Shown here piece after piece: positions 513 through 59,805 of a stretch of 60,012 nucleotides of DNA (within the stretch, counting starts at the first letter, position 1; each line of letters opens with the position of its first letter). A program made the position numbers and the translations under genes. The notes beneath the pieces are model-generated. The model had not been told where the DNA came from. It did no database searches and saw nothing but the letters and a program-made list of their open reading frames with translations. Source of the stretch: an uncultured Clostridia bacterium (GTDB taxonomy: Bacteria; Bacillota; Clostridia; Oscillospirales; Ruminococcaceae); NCBI GenBank assembly GCA_947627985.1, contig CANQYD010000009.1:1-60012 (forward strand), written 5' to 3'.

Positions 513-960
513 CGAGCCTTCAGCCCCTGTCAAGGTCCGGCAGGGGCACCAAGCCCTGCGCCAAGCCTTCTGCTTCTGTCAAGGCTCGGAAGTGGCACAC
601 AGCCCAGTACCAAGCCTCCCGCTTCTCCCAAAGTCCGATAGAAGCGCATACCCCGTTCACAATTTTCAAATTCTCCCAAGGGTCGGCAGAGGTACATAAC
701 CCCTTTTTCCAGCCTCCCTGCTTCCGCAAAGCCTTAGCAGAAGCACTTCACCCCCTCCTCCAAAGTCGGCAAATTATCTTCCGCCGTTTGAATTTATCGC
801 TGTAAATTTTTAAAGTAATGCCTTGCAAAAAACTCTCGGCGTTGTACATAAACACCGATTATGCAATGATATGCACCATCTCCCGAATATGACCTATCCA
901 AAGCCCCTGAATCCCCCGCAAAAAGCGTCGCCCCGAAATCCGACATCTTGCGCTCGGGAA

Positions 961-1079
961 TGTACAAATCGCCCTCATTGTTCTCACTGATTAAATCTGT
1001 CGCCAACGGCGACACCTTAAAATTCTGACAATCCGATATCTGACTTCTGTCCTCTTGATGCGGTCGCTTCGACCGCATC
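961..1079 (+). repeat. Promoter-linked ~120-bp repeat, copy 1
   Basis: The unit starts TGTACAAATCGCCCTCATT, contains hairpin 1 (GTCGCC-aac-GGCGAC, 999-1013), a pyrimidine-rich core TCTGACTTCTGTCCTCT, and hairpin 2 (GATGCGGTC-gcttc-GACCGCATC, 1057-1079). It ends 16 bp before the -35 box of the EamA-type transporter. Further copies are at 20535-20652, 32448-32528 (partial) and 32542-32661. Confidence 0.85.
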
Positions 1080-1095
1080 TTTGCGCTCCGGCACC

Positions 1096-1124
1096 TTGAC
1101 AACTCTCCCCTTTTCTGCTATACT
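1096..1124 (+). promoter_or_regulatory. Sigma-A promoter of the EamA-type transporter
   Basis: TTGACA (1096-1101), 17-bp spacer, TATACT (1119-1124). It lies directly downstream of repeat copy 1 and 33 bases upstream of the chosen start codon. Confidence 0.8.
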
Positions 1125-11399: not shown

Positions 11400-11526
11400 T
11401 CCCCTGCCCCTCTCCTAACCCAACCCCTCCCCTAAAGGGAAAGAGGGTCCGCTTTACTATAAGTCTGTGCAGACTTAGACGGGGAGGGTGGTCTGCTTAA
11501 AATAGCATGAGTTCATTTTCCGGCGG
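11400..11526. repeat. Dispersed ~125-bp repeat, copy 1
   Basis: The segment ending TAGCATGAGTTCATTTTCC (to about 11520) is almost the same as 28263-28298, including the GTCTGCTT lead-in. Further upstream both copies have a purine-rich AGGG block followed by CGCTTTA. A shorter echo, GTGCAGACTTA near 327-340, adjoins similar C/G-rich sequence. Confidence 0.6.
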
Positions 11527-20500: not shown

Positions 20501-20534
20501 AAGTCTCCTTTCTGAACATTAATTTTCGTGGGGA

Positions 20535-20652
20535 GTGTACAAATCGCCCTCATTATTCTCACTAATTAAATCTGTCACCAACGGTGACGCCTTGAAATTC
20601 TGACAATCTGACTTCTGCCCTCTGCACTCTTGATGTGGTCGTTTTGACCACA
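20535..20652 (+). repeat. Promoter-linked ~120-bp repeat, copy 2
   Basis: Same layout as copy 1. Hairpin 1 is GTCACC-aac-GGTGAC (20574-20588) and hairpin 2 is GTGGTC-gtttt-GACCAC (within 20632-20652); both arms changed together relative to copy 1. It ends 18 bp before the -35 box of the toxin-antitoxin operon. Confidence 0.85.
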
Positions 20653-20670
20653 CCTTTTTCGTGTGTTATG

Positions 20671-20699
20671 TTGACATTATGCGCATAATATGTTATAAT
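20671..20699 (+). promoter_or_regulatory. Promoter and operator of the RelB/YafQ-type operon
   Basis: TTGACA (20671-20676), 17-bp spacer, TATAAT (20694-20699), both perfect. A perfect palindrome ATTATGC-GCATAAT (20676-20689) fills the spacer, the usual place for autorepression by the antitoxin. Confidence 0.85.
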
Positions 20700-28174: not shown

Positions 28175-28298
28175 AACCCCCACCCCCAGACCCCCTCCCC
28201 CTTTTAGGGGGAGGGGGTTACGCTTTATTTATAGCTTTGAATAAGGTGTGCCGGGGGTGGGGGTCTGCTTTAAATAGCATGAGTTCTTTTTCCAGCGG
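28175..28298. repeat. Dispersed ~125-bp repeat, copy 2
   Basis: Begins with C-rich sequence (CCCCCACCCCCAGACC) facing GGGGGAGGGGG, then CGCTTTATTTATAG and GGGGGTGGGGGTCTGC, and ends TAGCATGAGTTCTTTTTCC, the block shared with 11491-11526. C-rich left and G-rich right parts pair, so the unit is an inverted repeat of miniature-element size. Confidence 0.6.
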
Positions 28299-28625: not shown

Positions 28626-28765
28626 ACTTGCCCTGTCCCAACTAAACCTCGGCGCATACTTCTAACCTCTAACCTTCTAACTTCTACCCTCTGAAAGCCC
28701 TCTTTCACGCAGATACCCCTATCCCCCGCCTCTGACCTCCGACATCTGCCAGTCTGCCTTCTGTC

Positions 28766-32324: not shown

Positions 32325-32447
32325 TATTTACCGCCTGACTTCCGAGTTATTTTATATGTAAATTGTATCAAGCGAATAAGAAAATGTCAATAATATTCAT
32401 TCCACGGGAGTGTCCATTCCGCACACATTATTCACTACTTTTAAAAT

Positions 32448-32528
32448 GTCGCTGCAAGCGACGCCTTGAAATTCTGACAATCCGATATCCGACCTCTGTC
32501 CTCTTGATGTGACCGCTTCGATCACATA
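32448..32528 (+). repeat. Promoter-linked repeat, copy 3 (partial)
   Basis: Lacks the TGTACAAATCGCC beginning. Hairpin 1 is GTCGCT-gca-AGCGAC (32448-32462), again a paired change from copies 1 and 4. Hairpin 2 (GATGTGACC-gcttc-GATCACATA) has mismatches. It is followed at once by copy 4. Confidence 0.8.
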
Positions 32529-32541
32529 TCTCATCTTGAGA

Positions 32542-32661
32542 GTGTACAAATCGCCCTCATTATCCTCACTAATTAAATCTGTCGCCACCGGCGACGCCTT
32601 GAAATTCTGACAATCCGATATCTGACTTCTGTCCTCTTGATGTGGTCTCTTTGACCACATC
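32542..32661 (+). repeat. Promoter-linked ~120-bp repeat, copy 4
   Basis: Complete unit: GTGTACAAATCGCC start, hairpin 1 GTCGCC-acc-GGCGAC (32581-32595), core TCTGACTTCTGTCCTCT, hairpin 2 GATGTGGTC-tcttt-GACCACATC (32639-32661). It ends 17 bp before the -35 of the GPH symporter gene. Confidence 0.85.
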
Positions 32662-32678
32662 TCTCATCTTATCCCCCC

Positions 32679-32707
32679 TTGACATTCCCCGCAAAATATA
32701 GTACAAT
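32679..32707 (+). promoter_or_regulatory. Sigma-A promoter of the GPH symporter gene
   Basis: TTGACA (32679-32684), 17-bp spacer, TACAAT (32702-32707). Confidence 0.8.
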
Positions 32708-37244: not shown

Positions 37245-38036
37245 ATGGACATCATCGAACTTTTTTCACTCAAAGGCAGAACCGCTCTGGTGACGGGAGC
37301 CGCGTACGGGATCGGTTTTGCGATCGCCGAGGCGCTTGCCGGTGCCGGCGCCGAAATCGCCTTCTGCTGCCGCTCGGAGGAGCACTTAAAGACCGCTCTT
37401 GCGGATTATTCGGCTCGGGGGATATCGGTTCGCGGGTTTATCTGCGACGTGACCGACGAGGCTCAGGTCGTTAATATGATTAAGAAAATAGGCGGGGTGG
37501 ATATTTTGGTAAATAACGCCGGGATCATCAAGAGAATCCCGATGACGGATATGTCTGCCGAGGATTTTCGGGAGGTTACAGATATCGATCTCGTCGCCCC
37601 CTTTATCTGCGCAAAAGCCGCAATTCCGGGAATGATCGAGCGGGGCGGCGGGAAGATCGTCAACATCTGCTCAATGATGTCGGAGCTCGGGCGGGAGACG
37701 GTCTCGGCGTACGCTTCGGCGAAAGGCGGGCTGAAAATGCTCACCAAAAACATCGCCTCGGAGTACGGTCGGTTCAATATTCAGTGCAACGGAATCGGTC
37801 CCGGCTACATCGCGACGCCCCAGACCGAGCCGCTTCGCAGGGTTCAGCCCGACGGCACCCGCCACCCGTTCGATCGGTTCATAATCTCGAAAACTCCCGC
37901 CGGAAGATGGGGAGAGCCGCATGATCTTTCGGGCGCGGCAATTTTTCTTGCGTCGCATGCCTCGGACTTTGTGAACGGGCAGATTTTGTACGTTGACGGG
38001 GGCATTTTGGCATATATAGGAAAACAGCCCGAATAG
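37245..38036 (+). CDS. KduD/DhuD-like short-chain dehydrogenase
   Basis: A 263-residue SDR enzyme with the cofactor motif VTGAAYGIGFA, the N-N-A-G element and the catalytic Y-x-x-x-K in SAYASAKGG. Overall it resembles gluconate 5-dehydrogenase/2-deoxy-D-gluconate 3-dehydrogenase-type proteins. In this setting it should reduce 3-deoxy-D-glycero-2,5-hexodiulosonate to 2-keto-3-deoxygluconate, the KduD/DhuD step that follows release of unsaturated uronic acid. GGAGG seven bases before the ATG at 37245 fixes the start; the frame is open further upstream to 37155 without support. Confidence 0.88.
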   Translation: MDIIELFSLKGRTALVTGAAYGIGFAIAEALAGAGAEIAFCCRSEEHLKTALADYSARGISVRGFICDVTDEAQVVNMIKKIGGVDILVNNAGIIKRIPMTDMSAEDFREVTDIDLVAPFICAKAAIPGMIERGGGKIVNICSMMSELGRETVSAYASAKGGLKMLTKNIASEYGRFNIQCNGIGPGYIATPQTEPLRRVQPDGTRHPFDRFIISKTPAGRWGEPHDLSGAAIFLASHASDFVNGQILYVDGGILAYIGKQPE

Positions 38037-38078
38037 AAGTCAGAGGTCAGAAATCAGAAATCAGAAATCAGATATCGG
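38037..38078. repeat. TCAGAAA tandem repeat related to the promoter-linked repeat core
   Basis: AGTCAGAGGTCAGAAATCAG and three tandem TCAGAAA-type heptads, ending GATATCGG. Read on the minus strand it gives CCGATATCTGATTTCTG, matching the core of the ~120-bp repeat (CCGATATCTGACTTCTG). It sits between the dehydrogenase and isomerase genes. Confidence 0.6.
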
Positions 38079-42921: not shown

Positions 42922-45900
42922 CTATCTGCGCTTTCGCTCAAGGAGAACCGTTAAAGCCGCAGCCGAGATCAGCGTCAAAATCGGGATGAATACCGCGGAG
43001 AAGCCGTTTTGGCCGCCACTTACATCGACATCATCAAACAGCTCGTCGGTCCTTGCCGGCTCGAACGGGTGATCGACCGTCTCCACAGGCAGGTTCACAA
43101 ACGACGCGACCTCCTCGCCTCCTGCCGAGACGGTTCCGCTGTCGCCGGTCGGCATCGAAATATAATCCTCCGTCGGCGTCTCGGAGACGGTGTAGCTCGT
43201 GCCCGCCGGAATTCCGCAGATCGTGACGCTCTCGCCGTCCTTTAAGAGCACCGATCCGCCGTTCGGAATGCTGCCGCTGTGCGATCCCGAGTAGCTGAAA
43301 CTTCCCGAGATTTCCCGACCGCGCGCGTCGAAGAATCTGACGGTGAAGGAGAACTCGCGGGCTTTATCGCCGCCGTCTCCGACGGTCTTCCAAACCGTCA
43401 GCCTGCCGTCGGGAACGCCGGGCTGATAGACGTTTCTGACGTTGACAAAGTCGGCTAAGGACTCATAATCTGCGGCGATTTCTCCGACGTCTCCGCTCGA
43501 TTTCACCGTGTGCCCGCGGCTGTCGGTCTCCGTGATCCGATAGCGCGTCCCGGTCGGAATATCCTCGATCGTGACGGTCTCGCCGTGCCCGATCGCGACC
43601 GTATCGCCGCTCTTGAGCTCACCCGAAATGCTGCCGCTGTAACGGTAGCTTTCGGCAAGCGGCTTGCCGTCGGGACCCGTAAGATCGATCCTGAATTCAA
43701 AGTCGCCGACGGTATCTCCCGCGTTTCCGCCGACCGTCTTTCTAAGGGTCAGACTGCCGAATTTTTTCTCGATCTCAACCTCGTTAGAAGGCGTATCTTC
43801 GGGATTATCCGGGTCTTCGGGAGGTCTGTGGGAAGCGGTTGCCATGTTCTTCCAGCTCTTTCCTGCTTCGGGAACAGTGACCTTAAAGCTCACCGTCTTC
43901 GAGGCGCCCTTAGCCATATCGCCGAGCTGCCATGTGATAATGCCGTCCGCCATGGTCCCGCCGTCTGAAATGCTGTCCTCGACAAGCTCAAGCCCCGCAG
44001 GAATCTCATCTTTGACCGTGACATCAACAGCCACCGAATCCTCCTCTCCGTCGCTCGTGACCGTGAGATAATATGTGACCTCGTCGCCGGGCTTGACTTC
44101 AAGCTTTTCCTTCGTGCGGCTGCCTTCTCCCACGCTCTGCTCTTTTTCGATTGAAATATGAGGCACGAATTCCTCAATTTCAACCTCGTTGGACGGGATA
44201 TCCTTTTCCGGCTCGCCGGGTTCATCGGGATTATCCGGATTGTTGGAATAATGCGTCGAAGCGCCGTTTATCCACTCCGTGTGCTCGGAAACCTGCGGGA
44301 CTGTGACGGTGAAATGTACAGTTGTGGATTTTCCGACATCAAGATCGCCGATTTTCCAAGTGATCGTAACGCCGTCTGAGCCGAGGCTTCCACCGTCGGA
44401 AATGCTGTCGGCAATAAGGCTGAGCCCATCGGGTATTTTGTCTGTTATCACAACATCTCTCGACGTGGTCTCGCCGTCGCTCGTGACGGTGAGATAATAT
44501 GTCACCTCGTCGCCGGGTTTGACCTCGAGCTTTTCCTTTGTTATATCGCCGCCGCTGACCTGCTGGGTTTTATCAATTGTGACATGGGGCACGGAAGGCG
44601 CAAGCTCATTCTCAAATGTCGGATCATCAGTAGTGTCGTCAAACTCATAAACGGAGGTTACAGAAAGCTCGCCCTTTGCGGGGTCTTCAACAACATCAAA
44701 CCGAACAGTGAGAGTTCTTTGATCGTAAATAACCTTCCCGCCGTTGTCGTCTTCCTTGACGGTGACGCTGTAGCTGCCGGCTTTGGTGAAGGCGATATTT
44801 CCAAACCGAGCGGTGCGAAGCGGTTCGGAAGCCTTCGCCGTCTTATTTTCGGGAAGGATCATTCCGCCGCCGGGATTATCTGCCTCGGTCATCGTGAAGC
44901 TGAAATCATACCCCGTCAGAGGTATCTCCTCGCCGTCTTTATAAAGCTTCTTGCCGACCGTGACCGCGTATTCGGTGCCTACGGGTGTATAGACGTTTTC
45001 AAAGACCGGTTCGCCGACATACTCGACGGAAATCTCCAAAACCCCGTCGTTATTATCATCGGTGACGTCGACGGTCGCCTTATGAGTCGCAGACGTGCTC
45101 TTAACGCCGTTTGCGTCATATTTTTTCTCGGCGACGGTGTAGCCGAATTTTCCTGTTTTGCCGAAGCTCATCTTGGGGAACGCGATCTTCCCGCCGTCTC
45201 CCGCTTTGACGGTATACACGCCGTCTACTGAGCCTTCAGGCATCGGGAAATCTTTTGAATCGGGGGTGAGGGTGAATTCATATCTTCCCGAATCTATCTT
45301 GTCGTCCCATTTTCTGCCGCCGCTTATTGTCTTTAGAGCCTCGATTTTTGCCTCGACCGGCTCGGGGGTATAGACATTCGTGAAGGTCGGCTTATCTTCG
45401 GAATATACGCCGTTTGCATAGGAATATGTGACCTCGGCGTGCAGAGCCTCATCTACAACGACCCTGACCTTCGCGGCGTTTTTGTCGGGGCTGAGTCTGT
45501 CTGCGGCGCCGCCTGTTTCTTTGATCTCATATTCATATGTGCCGGCTTTTTCGTAGGATATCGCCGGGAATGTGAACATGCCGCTCTTGCCGTCCGAAGC
45601 CGTAACGGCTTTTGCGATTACCGGTTCGGCATTTGAAGCCGCAGGCATGGGCGCGCCGTTTTTAGGCGTGAGGGTGAATTCGTATTTTCCGCTGTCCGAA
45701 GATGTCCATGCGCGACCGGAAATCGCCTTATTGCCGCCGATGATCGCAGTCCCGGGCGTGAATTTATTGACAAACCCGGCGCTGTTCTTATCGCCGTATT
45801 TGACGGAAGCCCGGAGCGCTCCTTCATCATCGGTCACGATGAAGATAACCGCGATACTGTTTTGATCTTTGGATATTCCGTGGATATTTTCGGGTATACC

Positions 45901-48900
45901 GTCCTCATAAAGGCTGTAGTAATAGTTGCCGGGTTCGGTGAACCCGATATCCTCAAAATTCACGTCTCCGCCGGTGCCGCCGCTGTTTGTGACCGCCTTT
46001 GCAGTCAGCTTATCCACGCCTGTCGGGAGAATTCCCTTTTTGCCGTTCTTATCCTGAATATCGGGGTCCGCGGGCTTTAAGATGAAGCCGTAAACGCCGT
46101 TATCAGCAGCTTTCCAGTCTCTTCCTTCGACGGTCTTGGACGCTTTTGCCGAAGCTTTCACAGGAGTGGGAACATACTTATTCTCAAACTCCGGCATATT
46201 TTCCGTGAACGCTTTGCCGTCCTTTGTGATCGCAACTTCGTCTTCAAGCGTGCCGTCGGAAGCTGCCGTCACGGTGACGGTCACGGTATAGACCGACCCG
46301 TCGTATTTAATGTGATCACCGTTTCCGGGGATCTCACGGATTTCGTAGACATACTCGCCTTCCTCAACATATTTTTCATTGAGAACGGTTATGCTGTCGC
46401 CCGTCTTTGAGGCTCCGAGACCGGTTACGGATACAGACCCCGATTTCCGATTTTCTTCGGGGATATTCCTGCCCGCAGCTTTTGTCTGCGTGACCGTGAA
46501 GGTGAAATCATAGGTCTTATCTTTGGGGATAGGACCGCTCAGGGTCTTCTTGGCGTTAAGGATCACGCTTGCAACTTTAGGATCAAAGGTGTTGTCGAAG
46601 ACAATCTTTTGAACCGATTCATTTCCGGATTTTTTGATTTCCGGGTCGCCGACCGTCTCAAGAGCGCCGTTATTATCTTCAACCGCAAATTTAACGGTGT
46701 ATGAATTGCTGCCGTAATGCACCGCCGGGAGGTTCGCGGAGGTATCCTCCGAAATCCTGAATTCATAGGTGCCCGCGGCTTTGAAAGTGAACCCGAACTT
46801 GCCGTCTTTTGTGACGGAAGTCTCCCCAAGCTTCGTCGTGAATGAGACTTCCGCGGTCTTATCATACTCGACCGCCGCAGCCTTCGTCGCGTCTGTAAGC
46901 TCGGCTTTGAAGCTGAATGTGTAGTTTCCGTCTCTCAGCTCCGGATCGCCGGTCAGATTCTTGGTAAAGCCGATTTCGTCTTTGACAGGCTCCGGCGTGT
47001 AGATATTTTCAAACTGAGCCGCCTTTGCATTGACCCCGATCTTGCCGGAATCGCCCGTGACCTTGCCCTTTTCATACTTTGCGCCGGTGGGGATATTTTC
47101 GGTTATCACATAATCCGCACCTGTCGGAAGATTTGTTATCTCTGCGGTCTCGCCCGGACTGAGCGTAAAGGTATATGTCCCGGAATTATCCGCCGTCATT
47201 TCCCTTTCCTCATTTCCGACCTTGTAGGGATAGCTGCCTCTGAGGGTCGCCTTTGATTCTTCGGGAAGGGTCAGCTTGAGAGTGAATTTAAACTCGGTCT
47301 TATCATCGACCGTCTTGCCCAAGAGATCGACGTACTTTTTGGTGACGCTGAGCTTGCCCGGGTCGGACTCTATCTCGTCGGAGGGTTCGTCGGGTTTGCC
47401 GGGGGTTGTGACTGCGTTTTTCCATACCTTGCTCTCGGCGATGTTTTTATCAACTGTCGCGGTGATTTTTACCTTTACTGTTTCGCCGCTTTTAAGCCTC
47501 GGGATCGTCCAACTGTACTTCACAAAGCCCGTCTCGGTTTCGTCCTTATTTTCGGTTACGCCTTTATCGGCGGGAGTGATTTCGGTTTTGTCTGCATTCA
47601 GCCATGTGGGTATTTTATCCTCAAAGCTGATATTTTCGCTGACCGAGCCTTCGTCGCCGGTGCCTGTAACGGTTACGGTGTATGTCACGCTCTCGCCGGG
47701 TTTCACGAAGATAAGCTTTCCGGTGTCGCCCGCGCCGAGGACCTTGGAGATGGCGTAGTCCGGTTTGAGGACGGTGTTGGTATACGCGACTGTTGATGTT
47801 TGACCCGCTTCGACCGTCCCGGTGCTGCTTGGGCAGCTCTGACTGTAATTATCAAAATCTTCCTCTGTCACCGTGTACTCGGTACCGAACGGGAGCTCAA
47901 AGACCGCTTTCTCATCGGCGTGAAGCTGAATTCTTCCCTCGCCGTCTTTGAGAATAACGCTCATATTTTGCTTTGAAGAGCCGCTCTTTTCCACTGCGTA
48001 ATTATAATCGCCCTCAAGATTTTTCGTGCCGATCTTAAATGAGAGCTTAAACGTGAATAAATCGGTCGCGTTTGCGGATGCGGCAGGCTCGACCTTCTTG
48101 GAAATTTCGAGCGTGCCTGTCTTTCTGGTGTTGGCGACGGTTGCTTCTGCCTCGAGGTTTTCAATGATGTTTCCGCTCGGATTTTCATACTTTGGTTCGT
48201 AATTTCCCGCGTTGATTTCTTCTATTTTGTATACCGCGCCGTTGGGAATGCCGCTTATTGTGACGGCTTCGTTTGGAGCAATATTCAAAAGATATGTTCC
48301 GTCAGCCTCGGAAGAAATCTGTCCGCCGGAGCCTGTGTAGGTAAGCGGTTTGGTGATCCTTTCACCGTCGGCGTCGGTCAGGGTCAGCTTAACGCTGAAT
48401 GCCGCGGGGTCGCCGTCATACGGATTTAAAATCTTTTTGGATATCTTCAATGAACCCACGCCGCGGGTGTTTGCAGCGGTCACAGATGATGATCCCGTGC
48501 TGACAGTACCTGTTGAGCCCGAAATTTCAGACTTATATCCGTTGATATAGCCGCTTGCGTCCACGCCATTTTCGGCGACGGTGTACGACGTGCCGTAAGG
48601 AAGCCCGGTGAATGTTGCATTCTCCCCTCCCCTGAGCTTGAATGTCGCCGTGAGAGCTCCGCTTGTATTATGTCCCCAAGTGACGATATTTGCAGGCACG
48701 GTGACATCATATTCATTTGCCAAAGTTACCCCCTCGGGGCTTGAGAACACGACGGTAAACTCAAACTGATCCGTCTCATCCCTGCCATCTCCGTCGATAA
48801 CCTTTGCAACGGTGAGTTTGCCGGTTTTAAGGGTGTTGGTTGCTGTCACTTCTACGGCTGCGCCGCCCGAAACCGTACCTTTTTCTGCTCCGGGAGCCTC

Positions 48901-51900
48901 GCCGAATGTCACATCATAATCGGTCGTATCCTCGGTTATTTCATATCCCGTTCCCGCAGGAAGACCGCTTACCGTCACGCTGCCGCCCGCCTTGACCTTT
49001 ACCGTCAAGACGTTGCCTTCTGCCGTAACATTTTTCTTATCGATGTCGACCGATACTGTCTCGGCAATATTTGTTAATGCCTTAAGATATGCGTCGACAT
49101 CAGCGTTGCCCGAATCGGGATTGGTCGGAGGCGTGAAGGTGATCTTAAATTCAAAATCACCTGCGGCATCGTCGGTAATTCCTTCAACTTTTTTACTGAG
49201 AGTAAGCTTGCCGGTCGGGTAATTGTAAAGCTCATACTCGCCCAAAACCTTATCGCCGCTGATATATTCGGCTGTGCCGCCGTGAGACACCAGAATGCCG
49301 ACATAATCGCCGTCTTTTTCCTTGACGCTCAGCTCTGTTCCCGTCGGAAGCCCGTAGATGACAAGTTTATCGCCGCTCCGCAGCGTTTTTGTGAATGTTT
49401 CGCCGACGGCAGCGTTGAGATTTATGCTCGGACCGCTTTGAATCTCGCCGGAGGTATAGACCCTCGCGACTGCGGTAACGCTGCCTTTGACCCATTTGGG
49501 AAGCTTTTGTATTGTCACCGTAACGTCAAAGCTTTCGTCCGAGAGAGACGCGCCGACTGCGCGCTTTGTCAGGGAAAATTCGGGGGATATAAAGTTAGTT
49601 ACAGTTGCGGTTGCGGGACTGTCGCCGTCGGCTGTGATCTTGCCCGTCCCGTTTTCCGCAAATGAGCCGTATGTCAGCGAATTGATCTCCGCCCCGTTTA
49701 CCGTTCCTCCCTGCTCGGCAACGGTGTAGCTTGCGCCGACGGGAAGCCCCGAGACCGTGACGGATTCGCCGGGCTTAATATTTACATATCCTATACCTTT
49801 TTTGTCAAATGTAACCTTTTCGGATTTAGCGGTATCGAATGTGCCCGAGACGGGAGTACCGGCGGAATTTTTAAGCTCGATGCGGAATCTGAACACCGCA
49901 TTCTCAAAGCTTTCCGCCCCCCGGACCTTCTTTTCGATCTTTAGCTTGCCTTCGGGGACCGTATTAACAAATTCAAGCGAAGCCCCGTCTTCGGTTACAT
50001 TTACCGTGCGGCCGTAATATGTTCCGCCGCTTGCGGGATATTCGGTGAGCTTATCATTGCCTACCGTGATATCGATATAACCGTCTGCGGGCTTGAACTC
50101 GCCGATATAGACCTGCGCGCCGATGGGAAGCTCATTTATAGTGACGGTATAACCGTGCTTGATACCGCTGATGACCCCTCCGCTTCTGACTTTGCCGGTT
50201 ATATCGGCACCGCCCGTCTTTACGGTATACGGATACTCCCCCGAAAGCTCTTTGCCGCTGTTATCCTTGATTGTAACGATAAAGTCAAAGGTCTTTTCGG
50301 GATTATCGCCCTCGGCGGGAGAAATCGTCTTTTTGAAGCTGACCTGCGAGATCATGACATTCTCATAATCCACCTTCAGGGTCTTTTTGCTGTTGACGGA
50401 TATTGCCCCCGTTTTCGATTCGTCCTTGGGCTTGATATTTTTTTGCTGATTCGCGCTGAGATTTTCCTTAACGGTGTAGATAGTCCCGTCGGGAAGATCG
50501 GTAAAGGAAATCTTATACCCGACTTTGAGTTTTACGGTTTCTTTCCATGTGTCTCCGGGCTTGATATCGGTGATGGTTCCCGAATCACCGGAAAGAAGTC
50601 TCGGTGCGCGGATATTGCGAATCTTGGGAAGACTTGCAAACGTGTTGAACGCAGAATCCGTCTCCACCTTCCAGCTGACGGTCAACGGGTCTTTTTTGAA
50701 GCTTTCCGACTCATCATATTGTTTGGCGATATAAACTGTACCGTCCTTTTCAACCGTATCAACGCCCTTTGAAGGGAATTTCAGGGTTATTGTGAAGTCA
50801 AACGCTTCAGACGGGCTGACGTTCATGGTCTTGAGTATCTCAAGATTGCCGAGCTTGGAGGGCTCGGGCTGTTTGGTATCGGCAAACTTAGCAGTTACAA
50901 CTACGCCGTCCGCGCCGCGAGATATCTTCACAAAACCGATATTGTCGATTTTGTAACCCTTGGGTGCGGTGATTTCCTTGATATAATACTCGCCTTCGGT
51001 GAGCCCGGTTATCGTTACAGTGCCGTCGGCATTGGTAGTCACCGTATCATAGAGATACAGTGACTTGCCGTCGTATGTCACAGGCTCGCCATCTTTACTC
51101 TCGCGCAGGGTGTATATCTCAAATTCTGCGCCCGAAAGTCCCGCGCCGGTGTCCGCGTCAGTCTTGACGATTGCGGCTTGCCATGTCTTGACGCTGTTCA
51201 CAGCCTTTATCGTGACGTCGGCTTCCTGATTGTAGATAAAGTCAAACTGCGCGTCATCAGCATTTCCGAAGCCTGCGAATGCGGTATCCGGGTCGTCTGC
51301 GATCTCGACGACATGATAATCCTTTATGTTGCTCAGATTAGTCTCCCATGTGAATTCATCCGCTCCTGCTTCATATTTATCATCATTCCACTCGGCAACC
51401 ATGGCATTTTCGAGCAGATATGTGCCGGAGGATTTACCTTTGCCAACGGTCACCGTGGCGACGGTAACATCTGTAATACCTTCACCTACAAGTGCATCAT
51501 GAATTCCCGACTCGGTGAAGTCGGTTATATTTACTCTATCATTGTTTTTATAAATGATAAATTTGAATGTCTTTTCCTCGGAAAGCTCATAGGGCTTGTC
51601 ACTGTCGTCTGTCACGACCTTTTCGATCGTAGGAGCCGACGGGAACTGAATGCCGACTATGGAAGGCTGGGAGGTGAGCTCATGTTCCGTGCCGCCTGTT
51701 CCGCCGCCTGAGCTGTCGGTATATTTATACCTGTAACCGAAGTTGTTCCAAGCGATCTGTCCCGGTGCAGCGGTGGGGTTGACAACAGCGTCGAATTCGA
51801 CGATGATTCGGCGTGTATGATTCTCTTCACCGGTATTGAGATACGTCTTGGCGTCAGTGCCGTTGATTATGATTCTGATAGAGCGATCGCTTTCCGGATC

Positions 51901-54900
51901 AAATTTATCGTCCCATCTATCATATGTATCAGTACCGTGCAAGCCGTCATTATCCAATTCATCTCTATCATAACTGGTACTATACTCGACAGTATACGAC
52001 GAATTCGGGATATCATGACGACTGCCGGAAACCTCTGCTCCCTTTTCATCGACATCGTAATAGTAAACCTTTATACCAAGCGTATCCGCAAAATTAACCG
52101 GAAATTCACTGTGCCGCTCGCTCGATGAGCTGAGGGCAAGAGTATCCCTAATATAGGGAAGCGGGTCGACGAGAACAAGCTCGTTGAGCACTTTGCCTTC
52201 ATCGGGGTTAAGATTGTCGAAGATAAGGCGGTAGGTGAACACGCTATCCTTGTTGTTAAGGAAAATCTTGTTGTTTTGGGGGTCTGTGGATATGCCGCTG
52301 TTGTGTTCTTCGTTACCCTTCTCAAAGATTTCCTGATAGGAAGACGTCGGGAATCCGGTGTGGACGTTTACCGTCGCGGAGGATTCAACGCCTTTTACTC
52401 CCTCTCGGTCGAAGTCGCTGCCGTGGGTGACATATCCCGCGTCAAAACCGTCGACGGGCAAAACTCTCGCGGTGTTATAGAAAATACCGGAGGCTGCTTT
52501 CGTGTCCAGCCCTTTCTGCATTTCGGATAAAACCGTCATGTCGACATGCCCGCCTGCGGGGATCGCAAGGGAGTAGGGCATGGGTCTTGAGCCGTTTTCA
52601 TCGATACACGCCTTTGAGAATTCTACTCTGAGCGTCAGGTCGCCGTCGGCGTTTTTGGCAAGGTAGACGGGGACGAAATATGTGAATGTACTTTGACCGA
52701 AATATGACGCTGTTTCACTTTTGGCGTCATTAAAAACTGTAGCAAGATTAAGTTTTACACAGTGGGAACTGACTTGAGTCCAATCTGCTCCGGCTTTTTT
52801 GTACAGACTTCCGTTAACATATAATTTGTATTCATTGATTTCAGAACTTGTACTGTGAGTTTTTATTATCGCAAATTCCCCTTCGCTATTATCGGAACCC
52901 CATTCAGTGAAATCAAACAAATAATCTTTTCCTTTATTTTTATCTGCCGTGGCATTGAGCAAGCGCCCGTTTATATCATCCTTATTGTCTGTATAAATAC
53001 CCCTTGAACCCGCGTAAAGCTCATAAGTCATCTTGCCCTTAAAACGCAGGGGATATTGAATCGCGTCCTCAAAATCAAAGGGCATGGCAGCGTCGCCGTC
53101 GTTGAACAGCGTAAGTTTCCACTTAATACTATCGGTATCATCATTATACTCCCTCGTCGCCGCTTCGCCTTCGTTAAGAGTTTTCTGGATTCCGGGAATG
53201 ATTTCGCCGGGGATAACATTCACGCTCGAAGCGAGGAAAACGGGGTCATCGTTATGGGTCTTAAGATCGGTGACGCCGGTCGACTCGGCTTCCTCCTTGC
53301 TCCAGAGCTTTCTGTCGCCGTCGTTGGCGGAAAGGTTATTTCTGGTAGAAACGGTTACTCCTGACTCTGTGTCAACTTCAACGTTTGCGTCGGAAAGACC
53401 GGGGACATAGTATTCCATGAAGGCGCTGTTTTCGGCATATGCGGCATTTGCAAGGTCTTCTTTTGAGCCTGTAACGGCTGTAAAGACGATCTGGGTATAT
53501 TCGCCCTCGTTGAGGTATACTCCGTTATCATCGTGATCCATATCCTTGGCGTGAGTTCCGGTGCTTGGAGAAGAAAATGAAAATGTTACCGTATTGCCGT
53601 TCGTTGTTGCTTTAATCGTTGCATTCCTGAATTTGGAGTAGTCTTTTTTTTGATACTCCGTATCCTCTGTTGCCCATGCAACGAGATAATCAAGTCCTCC
53701 CTCACTTGCACTGATTGTGCTGTTGGGCGTTCCTAATCCTCCGACGGAATAGCCGGGAAAGTGAGACATATACCATGCTTCGGCGCTCCACTTTCTTCCG
53801 GCAGACCCTCTCAGCGAAAGGAATTCAAAGCCCTCGGGCAGAACGTCATAGACGTCGGTGAGATACAGTTTCCCCTCCCCGGTGTTCTCGATGAAGATAT
53901 AATAGGTCACGGTGTTGAGCTGGATTTTCTGTTGTTCCAAAGTGCCTTCGGTATTGTAGGAATAGTGCGTGCGGTCGTGACCGATATAGTAATCGTAGAA
54001 TGTTCTGTCTGCGGGATTGGCTACGTTATATGTACCGATCTCGTAAACGCCTTTTTGCAGGAGCGCCTTGCCGGGGTTGACAAGCGTATGCTCGACGCGG
54101 TCTTCCATGCCGTAGACAAAGAGCGAATTCTCGACCGCCTTGTCTTCGCCGTCTCCGCCTGTGACATCGCTGTGATACTTATCCCAATCTTCTCCTGTCG
54201 GGAATGTCAGAGTGACATAGAAGTATATGCTCTGCTGCGGCGCAAACCTGAAATGAAGATCGTTTTCAAACTCGATTTTGTATCGAATGTCAGCCGAAGT
54301 GCCGGACGATGTAATATGCCAAGGCTCATTCAGAACGTCGTTTACGTACATTTTCCCGTCTTTGATTTCGACTTCGTCGCCGCCATAGGTAATCTCAAGG
54401 TTAGGGGAATCTTCAACCCATTCCAGAGACACATTGTCGGTCGACCATGTGAATTGACCGTAGGTCTGCGGCAGGAGATCGTAAATCTGAGAACCGGAAA
54501 GATTAACCGTCTCCGTCCTGCTGTTGTTATAAAGGTGCATGCGGTAGAGGACGGTGTTCTTTTCCTCGGTGATCGCAGAGCTGTCGGCGACCTTGTCAAG
54601 AGCGGGCACGCCTCCCCTTTCGAGGGAGATTTTCTTCTCGAATTTCAGCAGCGTGCCGTCGTGGATAAGATTTTCGGTGATACGTCTTCCGGGAACATCG
54701 TTGACCCAGACTGCGTTGTTGAGGCTCCACTTTTCAAGACTGCCGGCGTCTTTTCCGAGACAGATTTCGCGGTTGGTCGTGATCTTGTACTGAATGACCT
54801 GCTCGTATTCAAGCGGCAGGGTGTCGACGAAGTAGAAGTATAAAAGGGTGTCGAAGCCGGTTCTGACGTCTCCCTCTTTTGTTTCGGCGACTTCGATTCG

Positions 54901-57900
54901 GTCGGCATAGTATTTATCAAACTGAACGCCTTTGTAGATATATCTTCCGCTTACGCCGTTGAGGTTGAGGGCATAGTACGCCCTTCCGTCGACGTAGTGA
55001 AGCGAAGTATGGGGAATCCACTCGGCGCCCTTGTTGAGATCGGCGGGAGCAAGCACTACCTGCAAGCCGTTCATGTGATCGACTACCGGCAGGGTGTCAT
55101 AGGTGCCGGTACCCCAGTGCTTGAGCCTGAGAACGTAGTCCATATCCATGTCGAGGCGGAGTTTTTCGGTTATCCTCTCGTTGCCGCCGTCCTGCGTGCC
55201 GTATTCGGTGCCGTCGATGATGGCGTCTTTGATGATGTCGAGGTCGTTTTTGATGTAAAATGCCTCAACAGGCTGATAAACCTTGTCATGCTCTTCCTTG
55301 TCTTTTAAGGCTGCTATATTCTCGGCTTTAAAATCCTGACCGGATTGTCCGTACCATATATTGGTCGCCCACTCGTGTGTTGCCTCACTGTTCCAGCCGG
55401 CGCGATAGTGGTGATCGACGTCCATTTCAGAGTTGCCGCCTTCAACCACTTTGCCGTCAAGCATCATGAAAGAGTCCTTAATGCGGGCATTTACTCTTAT
55501 ATTTACCTCATCGCCGGGAGCATAGATAATCCCTTTGTCTAAAGTATACCATTTTAACATATACTTTGTACTGTTGCCGACATACATTTTCAGGTCTTTC
55601 ATAGCCTCGGCAACCGTTGTATAGTCGCCGCCGACGCCGATTTTTTTGGTAATGCCGTCATATGAAAGTTTTATTTGTTTATTCTCCGTATCAAATGTAT
55701 ATGTTACCGTTTTCTTTGTACCGTTGAATCTTTTATATCGTTTCTCGGTGTTTTTAGTCTGACCGGTGACAGGGTCTACCGCATCTTTATCATAAACAGT
55801 ATAATCGTCAAGGGTGTTTACGGTTGAATCGAGATACGAAGGCGTGCCGACGGTTTCCCCGTCAACAGCGGTAAACTGCTCGGTGGGAATTGTTTCCCCG
55901 CTATTGAGAAAATAAGCGTCGGTAACAGTGATTTCGAGATACTTTCCGTAATCTTCCTCAAAGAACAGGCGCTCAATTTCTTCGGGTTCAAGATAGCTGT
56001 TCTCGTCGGTAAGCCAATCCCAAATATTCCACATTCCGGCGTCATAGGCGCTCTCATTCCATATCCTGATGTTATAGGTCACGGGTTCGTTCATTCTTGT
56101 CGGTTTGCCGCCAACAAGAGTTTTTGACATTTTAAGCTCGCCTTCGCCCGCTTTCACCCTGTCCTCAGCGGAATCCGCATGAAGTTCGCTTCTATCGCCA
56201 TGAGTGAAGTTTACGGTCGAGTCTATATGATTTTTAACAGCATAGCCTTCCGCGGGAGCAGGCACGGCGGTATCCTGAATGATAATATCCCCGCCGAACG
56301 AAATCATCGCGCTGCTTGAATTTATGCTGATCTCGGAGGGAGTGCCGCTTAAGCTCGAATTCTCGACGTCCCAGACGACGCTCAGCTCGTTCCCGGTTTT
56401 TTCAAGCCTGATGTCGGTGATATTTCCCGCAACTCCTCCGAAGCCGCTGACCTGCGCGACGAGATATTCCTTCCCGTCGATTTTTGCATAAACCGAAGCC
56501 GAATTCCCGGTCACATTCTTGGTGACGCTGTCGGCAGCGATATTATCCCGCCACTTAAGACCCTCGGGGAGCTTGAATGTATCCTTAAACTCGACGGTTT
56601 TTACATAATCCGCACCGTATTCTGTCTCGGAACCGACAGAGCTTCCGGTGGAGGAGATGAGCCCGAGTTTATATGCAACGGGCTTTAGGGCAATCAAGCC
56701 GTCGGTCGAGGATTTTTGGAATCCGAGAGGATAGGCGACGTCGTTTTTAAGCCTCTCTTTTGAAAGGGTGAACTCTTTATGCTCAGTCGTCCAAACGAAT
56801 TTTATATACTCCGGCGAGACGTAAACGCCGTCGCCATAGACATTTACATCTCTATTGGGGTAATATACCGCTGCGTCGCCGGGATTATCCTTGCTAAGCG
56901 CCGCGCCCCAGACATATGCGGACGTGCCGGAAGGGGTGGGATAATTCTTTGTGGTGACGGTTATTGCGGTATTTATGGTTGAGCCGTCCCTGACCGGGAT
57001 AAAATCAAAGTACCAGATATTTTCCCCGGGGACCTGCGTCGGTCCTTCAATGGTGTATTGTTCTTTATCGGTGGCGGTCAGCTTCGGAGCCGTGAACCAT
57101 CTCGGATCGTCAGCCATCACATATATGCGGTATCTTTCCCACTCATAGTTTGAAGCGTTGATGGTGACGCTGCCGGTCTCTCCGGTGAGAAGATCGGTTT
57201 TATCTGTAGAGGCTTTAATGCCGTTTACATTAGTACCGTATTTAGCCTCCGTGCTGTTGCTTTCGGCAGACTCGGTGAGATCGTCGGCGGGATTTTTCCT
57301 GTCGGCAAAAGTGATATTTGTCTCCAAAAATGCGGCGTCGGGAATCGCAGAGGAGTTGGCAAAGAGCGCCTTGATTGCGCCGGCTTCGGTTTTACCGTTT
57401 ACGGAGGCAAGCTGATGCGCGCCGGTGAACGCAAAGTCGGAAAGGGACACATTACCGGGATTTTCAAACGTCACCGACTGCGCCGCTCCCTCTTCAAAAG
57501 CATAGGAAGCGACCGAAGTGACGGGCAATCCCCCGACATTTTCGGGAACAGTAATTTCCGCAAGGGACTTTACCGCATGAACAAGAGAAAGTCCGCCATT
57601 TTCAAGAAGATAGAGATTTCCGGCTCCGTCGGTATAATATATCTGCTCGCCGGTGCCGTCTCCGAAGATTCCGCCGACCGGATCGCCTGCGGGAAGCGTA
57701 AGAACGGCATTTGCAGGGAAGATGATGTCTGAAGTGTGACCGTTTGCGGCGATGAGAAAATCTCTGTTAAGGGTGGTGACGGTATCCGCGACAGTCAGGG
57801 TCATACCGTTTACATTGTTAAATATATTTTTGCTGCATTCGGCAATATTCGCTTTAAGCGTGAGATTGCGAAGGCTCGTCATATTGCCAAAGGCGTTGGA

Positions 57901-59502: not shown

Positions 59503-59805
59503 CAATATCATCCTCTCAAATTATTTCGCAGGATTTGTTGCAATAACGTGTACATTTTTGCAGACCAAAATTTGGTGAAATTTTTCAGCAAAACAGCCAA
59601 AAACTCGCGCGTTGAATATTGACTTTTTTACATAAATGTGATAATATAACTATAAATGCTTTGACAGTATTTGATGCAAAAAAGTACACATTGTTGTAAA
59701 AACAAATGACTAATTATGTAATAAATTCAAAATTAAGGCATGTGCGGTTTGCAAGCATGCTTTAGAAATGATGATATGATGCACAGTATTAAAAAGATGT
59801 CGTGA

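Follow-up and report, generated by a model that had tools for sequence, protein, structure and literature searches.

A short non-autonomous element upstream of promoters in an uncultured Clostridia genome and its probable IS1-type partner

Aiming at positions upstream of promoters has previously been described in bacteria for transposases of the Mutator superfamily. TnGBS and related insertion sequences insert 15–17 bp upstream of the -35 box, and the paper describing them ties orientation to unequal inverted repeats and proposes a contact with RNA polymerase (Guerillot et al. 2014, PMC3942029). Here, we describe a repeat of ~125 bp, named MITE-A, which takes up a comparable position in an uncultured Clostridia bacterium. 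What is new is an IS1-type system with promoter-upstream target choice; a literature search, conducted without ISfinder and most subscription papers, found no report of such targeting by IS1-type elements. In the following sections, we summarize the copies of the repeat, their position relative to promoters, their hairpins and probable partner, and the mechanism that we propose.

Copies of the repeat and evidence of insertion

The window (the whole stretch of 60,012 nucleotides that was analysed) carries four copies of the repeat, all on the + strand (Table 1). The ends of the element are sharp, with GGGAGTGTACAAATCGCC typically on the left and GACCACATCT or GACCGCATCT on the right. All four copies had been recognized in the original prediction, but the one described there as partial (32448-32528) is a diverged full-length unit. 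The additional "core fragments" listed there are not copies of the element: the match at 38035-38068 is marginal (E = 0.0088), and the other two (2399-2417, 28650-28765) are TTCTGAC-like tracts rich in pyrimidines. Such tracts resembling the core also occur elsewhere outside the element (in the window and in L036), sometimes directly before promoters, and may be a short repeat in their own right, expanding by slippage. No match to any Rfam family was found in the window at gathering thresholds. Other features of the window include an unrelated pair of 47-base repeats with 87% identity (11480-11526 and 28252-28298), paired G+C-rich palindromic repeats of ~150 bases shortly 3' of the EamA gene (2183-2335 and 2424-2577), and, on the - strand, a 5529-codon open reading frame (42922-59511).

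Table 1. MITE-A copies, target duplications, hairpins and neighbouring promoters in the window
Feature	Position	Strand	Context	Evidence
MITE-A copy 1	956..1080	+	5' of EamA-family transporter	nhmmer E 4.2e-40; alignment; Pfam EamA
Target duplication of copy 1, TTGCGCTC	left 948..955, right 1081..1088			
Hairpin 1 of copy 1	998..1014	+		
Hairpin 2 of copy 1	1057..1079	+	at right terminus	
Host promoter TTGACA-17-TATACT	1096..1124	+	15 bp from copy 1 end	
MITE-A copy 2	20531..20655	+	5' of RelB/YafQ operon	nhmmer E 3.9e-39; Pfam RelB, YafQ_toxin; empty site in related species
Target duplication of copy 2, TTTTCGTG	left 20523..20530, right 20656..20663			
Host promoter TTGACA-17-TATAAT	20671..20699	+	15 bp from copy 2 end	
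Divergent promoter TTGACA-17-TACAAT	32362..32390	-	15 bp from copy 3 left end	
MITE-A copy 3	32406..32529	+	diverged; unit 1 of tandem pair; no target duplication	nhmmer E 1.7e-30
Target duplication CTCATCTT	32530..32537		between copies 3 and 4 (tandem pair)	
MITE-A copy 4	32538..32662	+	5' of MFS_2-type sugar symporter	nhmmer E 3.6e-40; Pfam MFS_2
Right target duplication of copy 4, CTCATCTT	32663..32670			
Host promoter TTGACA-17-TACAAT	32679..32707	+	16 bp from copy 4 end	

Searches of the genome to which the window belongs, a draft assembly of 2.16 Mb in 72 contigs, showed that the repeat is widespread. At least 43 matches to copy 1 were found with 40 of 115 candidates scored, and a 19-base core occurs at 60 sites when up to three mismatches are allowed, compared with none for the reversed pattern. 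A profile search of stretches fetched from this genome returned 66 matches at E <1e-13, 52 of them full length; this count omits the truncated copy L079 and the fragment L077, so the MITE-A total is a lower bound. MITE-A is thus a short, multicopy element with a 125-bp model and no transposase gene.

Several observations identify the copies as insertions. The flanks of 30 of the 52 full-length copies contain an exact duplication of 7-9 bp (a junction shift of up to three bases was allowed), whereas shuffling flanks between copies (200 shuffles) gave a mean of 0.33 duplications and a maximum of 2. In tandem arrangements, one 7-9 bp target sequence lies between the units, in the window as well as in L030, L050, and L128. 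In addition, a related genome (G010) provides an empty site. Its RelB/YafQ operon is 92% identical from the last base of the MITE onward and its left flank 79% identical over 38 bases; the element is absent and the promoter is present. The RelB/YafQ promoter therefore exists without the element; it is a feature of the host site and not part of MITE-A. Taken together, the target duplications and the empty site identify the ~125-bp repeat as a non-autonomous transposable element (MITE). At one locus (L023:1539-1663), the right end has, by eye, seemingly recombined with an end of a second family described below, MITE-B (TTTGGGACGCTC).

Position relative to promoters

Among 60 copies in this genome that have an intact right end, 42 are followed by a promoter of score ≥10 within 90 bp outward of that end. 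The -35 box lies at 15 bp in 20 copies, at 16 bp in 15, and at 13 bp in three, one of which (L019 right) is an artefact, where a neighbouring insertion sequence had its end scored as a promoter. The share at 15-16 bp (35/42) is far above that expected for a uniform distribution over 0-89 bp (binomial 3e-51), and random window positions had any promoter in 5% of cases and one at 13-19 bp in 0.3%. Promoters pointing towards the element were found in 7 of 58 flanks, none with a -35 box nearer than 60 bp. Left ends were accompanied by a promoter in 10 of 56 copies, five of them at 13-16 bp; these five include L047 (L047:85), where an insertion-sequence end was again scored as a promoter.

These results modify the earlier description of the window. 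Distances of 16, 18, and 17 bp had been reported for copies 1, 2, and 4; their constancy is borne out, but the values from the element end are those given in Table 1 (15, 15, and 16 bp), the earlier figures having probably been counted from the hairpin. The 17-bp spacer is present at all three promoters, as had been stated. The claim that the element always precedes a promoter is correct for these three loci and does not extend to the genome, where 42 of 60 right ends have one of sufficient score.

Orientation is best assessed in copies that retain a target duplication. For 33 full-length copies of this genome with a duplication of at least 6 bp, the promoter is on the right only in 20 (19 without the L019 artefact), on the left in none, and on neither side in 13, which means that no promoter of score ≥10 lies at 13-17 bp. 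The latter 13 copies count against a reading based on promoter targeting; five of them face another unit of the family by eye (L028, L030, L031, L050, and L057), and eight are unexplained. All five copies with a left-end promoter (four without L047) lack a target duplication. In the four (L027, L043:1645, L048:3653, and copy 3 of the window at 32406), the left end lies 15-16 bp from the promoter, an arrangement that could have arisen by intramolecular transposition or by copies recombining with each other.

The picture was similar in a replication sample from the genus, in which 40 stretches of eight further species contained 44 full-length copies. A promoter at 14-16 bp was found for 23 of the 44 copies, in six of the eight species, and a duplication of at least 7 bp for 24 of 44, versus 0.135 in shuffles. 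When the 30 copies with a duplication of at least 6 bp were considered, the promoter was on the right in 18, on the left in three, and on neither side in nine. The three left-end cases (L107, L113, and L133), with duplications of 6-9 bp, are rare reversed insertions, so orientation is strongly preferred and not absolute. Within the genus, 12 of 31 genomes, including the one studied here, carry MITE-A, which was found in none of the 29 genomes searched outside it. With this larger set of copies, the preferred position relative to promoters, the preferred orientation and the paired changes in the hairpins, all proposed from the window, were found again throughout the genome and in other species.

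Hairpins and the insertion-sequence partner

Each copy contains two hairpins whose arms had been proposed to change together, and the alignment of the 52 full-length copies confirms this. Standard pairs make up 95.1% of paired cells, 7 of 16 pairs show double-sided changes, and the covariation score (0.164) exceeds that of shuffles (0.110; 0 of 500 as high); sliding the hairpin partners abolishes the covariation. At its main variable pair, hairpin 1 is an unpaired hybrid in 7 of 52 copies and hairpin 2 in 12 of 52. When a plain sub-family origin was tested by crossing the hairpins at these main variable pairs, they assorted freely, so descent from a few source copies does not easily explain the paired changes. 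A change in hairpin 2 between species, from GGTC/GACC to GGCC/GGCC, again preserves the pairing (by eye), and two copies fold more stably than shuffled sequences (z-scores of -3.66 and -3.28). We conclude that the pairing is maintained. By eye, the outer ten bases of the right end are complementary to the inner ones, forming the palindrome recognized as hairpin 2. The likeliest reason for keeping the pairing is that the palindromic right end is important for transposition; template switching at palindromes is a possible alternative source of paired changes.

Several MITE copies adjoin the ends of a longer element (GGGNGTGTMCAANCCGCCCACA). The same genome contains an insertion sequence of 905-906 bp (nine complete copies examined) with two reading frames and with ends resembling GGGAGTGTACAAACCGCCCACA. 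With 6.4e-8, ORF A passes the cut-off of the InsA zinc-ribbon model of Pfam (PF03811). Against the NCBIfam IS1 model (NF033558), ORF A scores 1.6e-16 and ORF B 2.5e-7, both below the cut-off when the frames are scanned apart. The match of ORF B to Pfam DDE_Tnp_IS1 (PF03400) is likewise below the cut-off (1.4e-3 in L019), and one copy of the insertion sequence reaches 24.3 bits against a Pfam IS1 cut-off of 24.1, with the other scored copies below it. ORF B lies in the +1 frame relative to ORF A, at an A7 run (L019:1975-1991). A -1 frameshift at an A6C motif is not known from every listed IS1 member; as ORF B is at +1 and not -1, we name the partner IS1-type and not a canonical IS1 element. Searches of the class detected the partner transposase in 2 of 391 genomes and Pfam DDE_Tnp_IS1 in 2 of 391, own genome included in both cases.

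The insertion sequence shows the same choice of target. Three of the nine complete copies have a target duplication of 8-9 bp, with the promoter at the left end in L012 (16 bp) and L151 (15 bp) and at the right end in L149 (15 bp). Overall, 4 of 13 left ends and 6 of 14 right ends face a promoter at 14-17 bp. In L012, the insertion sequence cut inside the outermost bases of an older MITE and now lies 16 bp from the -35 box, which indicates that the distance is kept relative to the promoter and not to the element. A second family, MITE-B, is ~105 bp long and matches the insertion-sequence ends at both of its own ends; a promoter lies at 14-17 bp from 7 of 21 of its ends. MITE-B loci are L064, L065, L066, L068, L071, L073, L074, and L028. 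Several ends of insertion sequences and MITE-B that lack a promoter abut a second element (by eye).

The left end of MITE-A matches the inverted repeat of the insertion sequence. Its right end shares only an inner motif with this repeat and differs in the outer ten bases (by eye); the inner arm of hairpin 2 (CGACCGCATC) resembles, also by eye, the inner part of the inverted repeat (CGNCCACAT). The shared ends suggest that the partner IS1-type transposase probably moves MITE-A in trans.

Proposed mechanism and comparison with known systems

We propose with high confidence that an IS1-type insertion sequence mobilizes MITE-A by making a staggered cut at a set position 5' of promoters of the sigma-A type. 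The 905-906-bp element would supply the transposase, acting on MITE-A in trans and making the 8-9 bp staggered cut 5' of the promoter. The right end usually lies at a distance of 15-16 bp from the -35 box, which places it near -51 from the transcription start, and the core promoter is left intact. The C-terminal domain of the alpha subunit usually contacts DNA near -51, and the site may be found through promoter-bound RNA polymerase or through the promoter DNA. The palindromic right end would serve as a recognition structure for the transposase, hence the retained pairing, and the unequal ends of MITE-A would bias its orientation. Consistent with the latter, MITE-A with its unequal ends is inserted mostly one way (19:0 in this genome, 18:3 in other species), and the near-equal-ended insertion sequence both ways. 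A bolder version, which we advance tentatively and with slightly less than an even chance of being right, is that an IS1-type transposase independently evolved docking on promoter-bound RNA polymerase and that its MITEs built palindromic, orientation-biasing right ends, and that many species of the genus were then seeded with elements that lie 5' of active promoters, mostly in one orientation.

Recognition could instead involve DNA alone, with the transposase directly reading the sequence or shape around the -35 box without RNA polymerase. We consider this a real possibility, albeit a rather doubtful one. A C directly precedes the -35 box of 30 out of 38 targeted promoters (the 38 include the L019 artefact), which hints at a sequence preference, but the 17 exact 8-bp target duplications have no clear consensus. 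The spacer is 17 bp in all 37 element-associated promoters of score ≥12 (L019 included), compared with 14 of 19 other promoters in the window (p = 0.003, with a small control set); this hints, and only hints, that a complete promoter is sensed. A distant relative in an Angelakisella bin (L170) carries TTGACA 16 bp beyond its end, on the right of the transposase gene. No -10 box accompanies it, and the surrounding DNA looks like coding sequence. This arrangement would sooner point to the -35 sequence being read directly, or to coincidence.

It is improbable that the repeat is a host regulatory cassette or insulator, selected at promoters and with hairpins acting in transcription. Constant distance, preferred orientation, hairpin covariation within and between species, and the fold z-score of -3.66 would all agree with such a role, but the insertion itself explains the distance. 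Furthermore, the target duplications, the empty site, the ends in common with an insertion sequence, the tandem units split by one target sequence, the unrelated downstream genes and the lack of any match in the 29 genomes outside the genus all speak against it. The original prediction had suggested a regulatory cassette, an insulator-terminator that comes with a promoter, or a small RNA gene. As the copies are insertions and the promoter is present at the empty site, the small RNA gene, the intrinsic terminator, and the regulatory cassette were set aside; the bases after hairpin 2 are a variable target duplication without a T run, and the structure is thus not a standard intrinsic terminator.

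Near-random intergenic insertion, with survival of only those insertions that spare the promoter, is very unlikely. Harmful insertions would presumably be lost, and some target-duplicated copies lack a nearby promoter, but survival alone predicts a minimum distance and not a window of 1-2 bp that holds 35 of 42 copies. The earlier argument that random insertion cannot produce this constancy is therefore sound, but targeted insertion does produce it. Equally remote is movement of MITE-A by a Mutator-superfamily transposase of the ISLre2/TnGBS type: a target distance of 15-17 bp is reported for that group in PMC3942029, but the left end matches an IS1-type insertion sequence that itself has the same target choice, and Pfam Transposase_mut has no match in the genome (a draft; controls were detected in 6 of 14).

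The dozens of mapped insertions, with equal- and unequal-ended elements side by side, provide a natural set for questions of orientation and distance, and they form a map of promoters once in use in uncultured Clostridia. Among known elements, MITE-A resembles Correia elements in being small, non-autonomous, and located upstream of genes. It differs in that its promoter belongs to the host site, whereas Correia subtypes carry promoters of their own, according to PMC10969869. The partner is similar to IS1 of E. coli in its length of less than 1 kb, its InsA-like zinc-ribbon first frame and putative IS1-type DDE second frame, and its target duplication of 8-9 bp (the length for IS1 is taken from PMC12428005). 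Unlike E. coli IS1, it has a divergent sequence and targets positions at a fixed distance upstream of promoters, and its second frame is at +1 at an A7 run, as opposed to the -1 arrangement at an A6C motif given in the same paper. With regard to targeting, the closest counterparts are TnGBS/ISLre2 (p-MULT 3) and the ISKra4 group of p-MULT 4, which likewise insert 15-17 bp upstream of a sigma-A -35 box. According to PMC3942029, one given end is mostly on the promoter side, and both orientations occur when the inverted repeats are nearly identical. Their transposases belong to the Mutator superfamily, whereas the partner described here matches IS1-family models. That an IS1-type system uses this distance as well, with a comparable rule for orientation, points to convergent use of one landing place at the promoter complex.
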